A stretch of 64,000 bases of DNA from an uncultured Clostridia bacterium (lineage in GTDB: Bacteria > Bacillota > Clostridia > UBA1381): the NCBI GenBank assembly GCA_947623955.1, contig CANQIP010000005.1, positions 33,142 through 97,141 on the forward strand. The letters run 5' to 3'. Below are positions 22,717-22,936 of this stretch, one piece after another. The position numbers and the translations under genes are program-made. Positions within the stretch are counted from its first letter, which is position 1. The number at the start of each line of letters is the position of its first letter. The notes beneath the pieces were generated by a model, which did no database searches, was not told the origin of the DNA, and worked only from the letters and a program-made list of their open reading frames with translations.

Positions 22717-22747
22717 AAAAACGGCGGCTAAAACAGCCGCCGTTTTT
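22717..22747 (+). terminator. Terminator after nfnB
   Basis: 9-bp perfect GC stem (22721-22729 with 22735-22743) extended by A/T pairs, 5-base loop and TTTTT. Confidence 0.9.
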
Positions 22748-22751
22748 GTAT

Positions 22752-22829
22752 AAAAAAAATGAAGATATACATCAGCCTCTTTCAAGCAGGCTCCTATTGC
22801 CTGCGGCGAACACTGATGATACCCTCATC
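22752..22829 (-). ncRNA. Candidate independently transcribed small RNA, about 78 nt, rod-shaped
   Basis: No gene covers this stretch. On the minus strand a perfect promoter (22836-22864) is followed by about 78 bases that fold on themselves: the 5' arm (22813-22826) pairs over 14 positions, with two G-U and one bulged U, to the 3' arm (22761-22775). The 3' arm is immediately followed by eight T (22752-22759), so the outer stem itself acts as the terminator. Inside lies a 6-bp hairpin (22799-22804 with 22786-22791, loop AATAGGA) flanked by an internal loop containing GTTCGCC and TTGAAAGAG. It matches no RNA family I recognise (not SRP, 6S, tmRNA or a known riboswitch). No open frame or ribosome site is visible inside it. 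Confidence 0.65.
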
Positions 22830-22835
22830 AAGAAT

Positions 22836-22864
22836 AATATATCATAACAAGTTAAATTTGTCAA
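22836..22864 (-). promoter_or_regulatory. Promoter of the candidate small RNA
   Basis: Consensus TTGACA (22859-22864), 17-base spacer, TATATT (22836-22841) on the minus strand, just past the terminator of the SLH gene. No protein-coding start lies downstream. Confidence 0.78.
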
Positions 22865-22899: not shown

Positions 22900-22936
22900 A
22901 GAATATAAAAACCGCCGACATTATGTCGGCGGTTTT
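22900..22936 (-). terminator. Terminator after the SLH-protein gene
   Basis: Perfect 14-bp stem (22908-22921 with 22923-22936 around one base) and a T-rich tail (TTTTATATTC) on the minus strand. Confidence 0.85.

Follow-up and report, generated by a model that had tools for sequence, protein, structure and literature searches.

A predicted small-RNA family antisense to the tail of MuF_C domain genes and its orphan copy in an uncultured Clostridia bacterium

Described systems nearest to the rod RNA

MuF_C (PF18819), a domain of the PBECR group that occurs in phage and plasmid proteins, is predicted to be an RNase. PBECR domains have been described as predicted RNases delivered by phages (PMC5512222). 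We report here a predicted small RNA with a rod-like fold, encoded in a 64,000-nucleotide (nt) stretch of contig CANQIP010000005.1 from an uncultured Clostridia bacterium; this whole stretch is referred to as the window, window coordinates are positions within it, and its genome is labelled G000. Sequence comparison assigns the rod to a new predicted small-RNA family that lies antisense in the tail of MuF_C genes, and the window copy is an orphan of that family. The papers on MuF_C/PBECR domains and MuF toxins (PMC5512222, PMC5576092) concern the protein family whose gene nests the rod RNA; the word "antisense" occurs in the text of neither, and text searches over part of the literature returned no publication that connects either MuF_C or PBECR with an RNA acting as antisense or antidote.

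Three kinds of described system resemble this arrangement. Type III toxin-antitoxin systems (ToxIN, CptIN, TenpIN) share with it a predicted endoribonuclease and a small structured RNA in mobile elements, with direct neutralization proposed. However, the type III RNA is an upstream array of pseudoknot repeats, whereas the rod is a hairpin with its own promoter, antisense in the 3' coding tail of the toxin, and the MuF_C antisense RNA is not encoded by repeats that precede the toxin within an operon. The protein differs as well, being a predicted BECR-type MuF_C domain, often within a giant polyvalent protein, and the rod is without an Rfam match. Type I systems of prophages (yonT/SR6, SymE/SymR) resemble it in having a small RNA that runs antisense over a toxin-like gene of a phage or mobile element; such overlap is present at the intact MuF_C loci examined, phage Mu excepted, but not at the gene-free window locus. 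Unlike type I toxins, MuF_C proteins are not small hydrophobic toxic peptides, and the rod further differs in that orphans lacking a target are conserved and the apical loop is fixed across phyla. Skipping-rope RNA (RF02924) is likewise a self-terminating small RNA. Its promoter overlaps a PBECR nuclease gene at the 3' end, and orphans are found elsewhere, but this RNA differs from the rod in sequence and structure, lies on the sense strand after the stop codon, and is partnered with PBECR2/3 rather than MuF_C.

The rod RNA in the window and its relatives

The rod lies between the terminators of an SLH gene and of nfnB. The initial annotation had seen no gene in this gap, and comparison of the minus-strand frame among relatives bears this out, finding no conserved open reading frame that would account for conservation of the rod. 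The parts of the locus are as follows.

22859..22864, minus strand: -35 hexamer TTGACA, from the promoter scan, unchanged in the syntenic copy of genome G010
22836..22841, minus strand: -10 hexamer TATATT, with a 17-nt spacer and preceded by TG, from the promoter scan
22752..22829, minus strand: predicted small RNA of about 78 nt, rod plus U-run, its start inferred from the promoter
22812..22829, minus strand: 5' arm of the outer stem, 18 pairs, from fold and covariation
22758..22776, minus strand: 3' arm of the outer stem, one bulged base at 22769, from fold and covariation
22786..22804, minus strand: inner hairpin GCAGGC-AAUAGGA-GCCUGC, its signature loop (22792-22798) conserved, from fold and covariation
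22752..22759, minus strand: U8 terminator run, eight A on the plus strand, from the sequence
22752..22847, plus strand: relic of the MuF_C C-terminal tail, KKNEDIHQPLSSRLLLPAANTDDTLIKNNIS up to a stop, without start codon or upstream domain
22719..22747, plus strand: nfnB terminator, one boundary of the insert
22908..22936, minus strand: SLH-gene terminator, the other boundary of the insert

The minus-strand promoter agrees with consensus at 11 of 12 positions and tops the seven matches found in the region scanned; shuffled sequence gives 2.6 matches of any score. It had been called perfect; its hexamers and spacer stand, but the -10 element matches at five of six positions. The minus-strand sequence 22830-22752 folds at -33.2 kcal/mol (z = -5.1), a value equalled by none of 200 shuffles. 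As first proposed, the fold runs end to end, with an internal loop between the outer stem and a six-pair inner hairpin (22804-22799 with 22791-22786) that carries the loop AATAGGA, and eight T close the RNA; the outer stem, given originally as 14 pairs, extends to 18 pairs with one bulge (22829-22812 with 22776-22758). The window copy thus shows every feature that marks the family: inner hairpin, 7-nt loop AAU(N)GGA, U-run, and promoter with a 17-nt spacer.

The suggestion of an independent, self-terminating RNA outside known families also held, as an Rfam search of the window returned no match at gathering score, and the cut-offs of skipping-rope RF02924 and of ToxI-type families were not reached. 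Sub-threshold matches at permissive E-values fell far under the family cut-offs and in many cases lay on the adjacent nfnB terminator; they were set aside. No match was found when plasmid and E. coli DNA was searched with the window RNA. A leaderless peptide on the RNA strand was likewise rejected: the start of its 18-codon minus-strand frame (MRVSS and onward) is lost in two relatives, and a stop is gained in one.

Searched with blastn, 60 related genomes yielded a 96% identical copy at the same place in G010, together with more distant copies at other sites in G010 and in G034, G003 and G007. A covariance model built from six copies found further copies in G011, G065 and G208, the last belonging to a different family within the class. 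At several unrelated loci, the promoter, the rod and the U-run have all been kept in the relatives, and copies outside MuF_C genes occur at several loci. When ten rods were aligned, 95% of cells were paired, and changes on both sides of a pair were seen in seven pairs, 18 cells and both stems, so that the covariance check proposed at the outset did reveal compensatory changes in relatives. The covariation score was reached by none of 500 shuffles, and structures slid along the alignment paired only 32-50%. The minus strand pairs 207 of 218 cells (21 of them G-U) and the plus strand 188 of 218; because the minus strand pairs better, the selected object is taken to be the minus-strand RNA, and a DNA cruciform or a structure in the sense mRNA is rejected on the same ground, although in a hairpin-selected phage set (see below) the two strands improve equally.

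Aligned with the syntenic copy in G010, the G000 rod shows no difference across about 70 nt; the genes on either side agree less well, nfnB at 91.6% and the SLH gene at 85.4% identity. If the rod changed as fast as nfnB, 70 positions would all stay intact with a probability of 0.002, and if it changed as fast as the SLH gene, with one of 2e-5. In a closely related genome (L041) the SLH and nfnB terminators adjoin, with no RNA between them, marking either an empty or a deleted site. These comparisons show selection acting on the orphan copy in the window.

Other orphan neighbourhoods contain additional promoters. Downstream of the orphan rod in G007 and G011 (L051, L056, about 1840-1900) is a further strong promoter, TTGACA/CTGACA-17-TATAAT, which leads into AAAAAGGCAATGACCTCAAACGGTTATGCC; this may be another small RNA and has no Rfam match. 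In G003 (L050), a promoter TTGACA-17-TATATT lies directly 3' of the orphan rod and is followed by the repeated motif ACGTTTCGGACGTTG.

Antisense units within MuF_C genes

The plus strand of the window copy reads KKNEDIHQPLSSRLLLPAANTDDTLIKNNIS up to its stop. In genome G034 (L067), the matching stretch, TKNNEDIHQLLSAGLQLPGAAADDTLINYNIP, is found within a 2155-residue polyvalent protein, directly after a MuF_C domain (PF18819, E 1e-18). This match makes the window copy a relic of a MuF_C tail, one trimmed to the part that lies opposite the RNA and its promoter. The RNA is thus an orphan, as first described, in having no gene at its locus, but it is not an isolated case, for intact MuF_C genes carry the same antisense unit.

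Intact MuF_C genes were collected with a protein profile, which makes no use of the hairpin, and with tblastn against phages and plasmids. The antisense unit of promoter, rod and U-run occurs in those of Clostridia, of E. coli and Pasteurella phages, and of Acinetobacter and Opitutaceae plasmids, and so in several phyla; the encoded proteins range from hundreds to thousands of residues in length. The promoter spacer is 17 nt in 21 of 21 MuF_C antisense loci, under scoring that took one point off other spacings; after the promoter come a rod with loop AAUUGGA and then a U-run. This geometry was seen at the intact MuF_C loci examined, except in phage Mu, and at these native loci the RNA is complementary to the mRNA along its whole length. 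The Mu protein gp30 ends at its PBECR domain, without the tail and without the RNA; that domain has been described as inactive (PMC5512222). No sequence relationship links the outer stems of different subgroups. A 7-nt loop, (A/U)AU(U/C)G(G/C/A)A, is retained in the inner hairpin, whose stem pairs covary (GGGC/GCCC, GGGG/CCCC and GGAA/UUCC, for example). The window's own genome holds an intact MuF_C gene (L072, G000:C27:3782-4111) with an antisense promoter TTGACA-17-TATACT and a rod whose outer-stem sequence is unrelated.

Two roles for the hairpin were rejected. A gene-end terminator does not fit, as MuF_C often sits in mid-gene, and a CsrA decoy acting through a GGA loop does not fit loops that lack GGA (AAUUGCA, AAUUGAA, AAUUAGA).

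Exact DNA-pattern scans of IMG/VR for an R1-type rod, and protein scans, returned nothing or almost nothing; hairpin-pattern scans did find phage loci, and the larger phage set chosen in this way counts only for promoter and outer stem. Five IMG/VR phage contigs (L109, L123, L131, L156, L170) have two GLQLP-like hairpins in tandem in MuF_C tails, hinting at duplicated RNA modules.

The unit lies in coding sequence, and it might be a by-product of coding or a decaying prophage relic with no present function, the hairpin arising from the residues GLQLP and the promoter from conserved tail residues. The GLQLP frame is indeed conserved in proteins, and at single loci the promoter signal is modest against codon shuffles. 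With shuffles that kept protein sequence and codon usage, however, the antisense fold had a mean z of -3.4, with p<=0.01 in 14 of 18 loci (sense fold z -2.2, promoter +2.2). Compensatory changes also alter residues, GGGG/CCCC giving GVQFP and GGAA/UUCC giving GIQYS, and the window copy, although non-coding, is fully conserved. The covered tail is predicted to be disordered, so protein constraint should be weak there and the coding sequence can bend to the RNA. We regard a coding by-product or functionless relic as very improbable.

Skipping-rope RNA and the proposed role in trans

The weak MuF_C matches seen in the genus proved to belong to PBECR2/PBECR3 nucleases. Across the order's 95 genomes, 31 PBECR2 (PF18810) genes scored above cut-off. 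Skipping-rope RNA lies behind 30 of them, on the same strand and 37-53 nt past the end of the domain match, its promoter straddling the PBECR2 stop codon. The loci are:

G000:C24:22205-22670: PBECR2 gene with skipping-rope RNA
G000:C2:114664-115147: PBECR2 gene with skipping-rope RNA
28 more in the order: PBECR2 genes with skipping-rope RNA (L075, L077, L236-L265)

Fourteen of 44 skipping-rope copies have no adjacent PBECR2 gene, and in the orphans L244, L246 and L262 the last codons alone are left, that is, the promoter. Two unrelated RNA families thus follow one habit: both place the RNA gene where the coding sequence for a PBECR nuclease domain has its 3' end, and both have orphans that keep promoter and RNA.

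For an RNA with its own promoter that strictly accompanies a nuclease gene, and that is also retained by itself on chromosomes, the best explanation is an antidote acting in trans. We therefore lean, if only slightly, towards the reading that the RNA is a partner, probably the antidote, of PBECR-type nucleases, and that the window copy is a retained antidote. The RNA gene, antisense inside the MuF_C tail, would be transcribed independently of the toxin gene from its own constitutive-type promoter. The RNA would bind the MuF_C nuclease, which would recognize rod and loop; the bound nuclease would be neutralized and the carrier of the mobile element protected. A copy such as that in the window would stay on the chromosome after the rest of the element was lost and could benefit the cell by protecting it in trans. 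The initial annotation had raised a regulatory or protein-binding RNA as a possibility, and we concur with it as such.

Alternatively, the RNA may act by type I-like control in cis, pairing with MuF_C mRNA and lowering expression, the rod being an ordinary antisense stem-loop. Full complementarity to the mRNA at native loci would suit this, and antisense RNAs that overlap the 3' ends of toxin genes occur in prophages, yonT/SR6 being an example (PMC5848175). Yet rod, loop and promoter persist in orphans that have no target gene, one of them fully conserved between species, and the RNA often lies over the middle of a very long open reading frame. The apical loop is constant across phyla, although pairing requires no fixed loop; together with the compensated rod, it favours recognition by protein over base-pairing. 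Skipping-rope RNA, moreover, is on the sense strand of PBECR2, where pairing in cis is impossible. Control in cis is, in our judgment, unlikely.

The RNA could also be a working partner of the nuclease, for example a ligand carried with the virion protein or one serving folding, delivery or specificity. Strict pairing of RNA and PBECR genes suits any obligate protein-RNA complex, and RNA binding has been proposed for inactive members (PMC5512222). There would be little cause for a working partner to outlast its protein, yet orphans that lack the protein are seen at several loci, and we consider this role quite unlikely.

Several observations weigh against an antidote made as an antisense RNA. 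At single loci, promoter p-values against codon shuffles are mostly 0.01-0.1, conserved amino acids partly imposing the promoter. In the hairpin-selected phage set, the antisense fold (z -2.65) and the sense fold (-2.61) are equally improved, and the best promoter has the 17-nt spacing in 16 of 32 loci (null 22%). E. coli phage promoters are weak, at 8/12, and the inner hairpin has diverged at a few MuF_C loci. On the protein side, the AlphaFold core of MuF_C is moderately confident and its nuclease activity is a prediction; comparison with the PDB for a match to RelE/ColE5-type RNases gives RelE-like HigB at Z 3.5-3.8, weak and tied with unrelated folds, and so assigns no fold with confidence. 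A PDB sequence search with the MuF_C profile gave no significant match.

A broader proposal, which we advance tentatively by analogy between the two families, is that the PBECR-type nucleases found in phages and in mobile elements have, as a rule, dedicated RNA antidotes encoded at the 3' end of the domain, antisense in MuF_C and sense in PBECR2, and that orphans are kept as protection. If true, the pairing would represent a new type of toxin immunity based on RNA. The orphan RNA of the window would gain a context that gives it a function and so, by parallel, would skipping-rope RNA. The proposal predicts RNA antidotes inside, or directly behind, the genes of widespread phage-delivered RNases, where searches for protein-only immunity would miss them.
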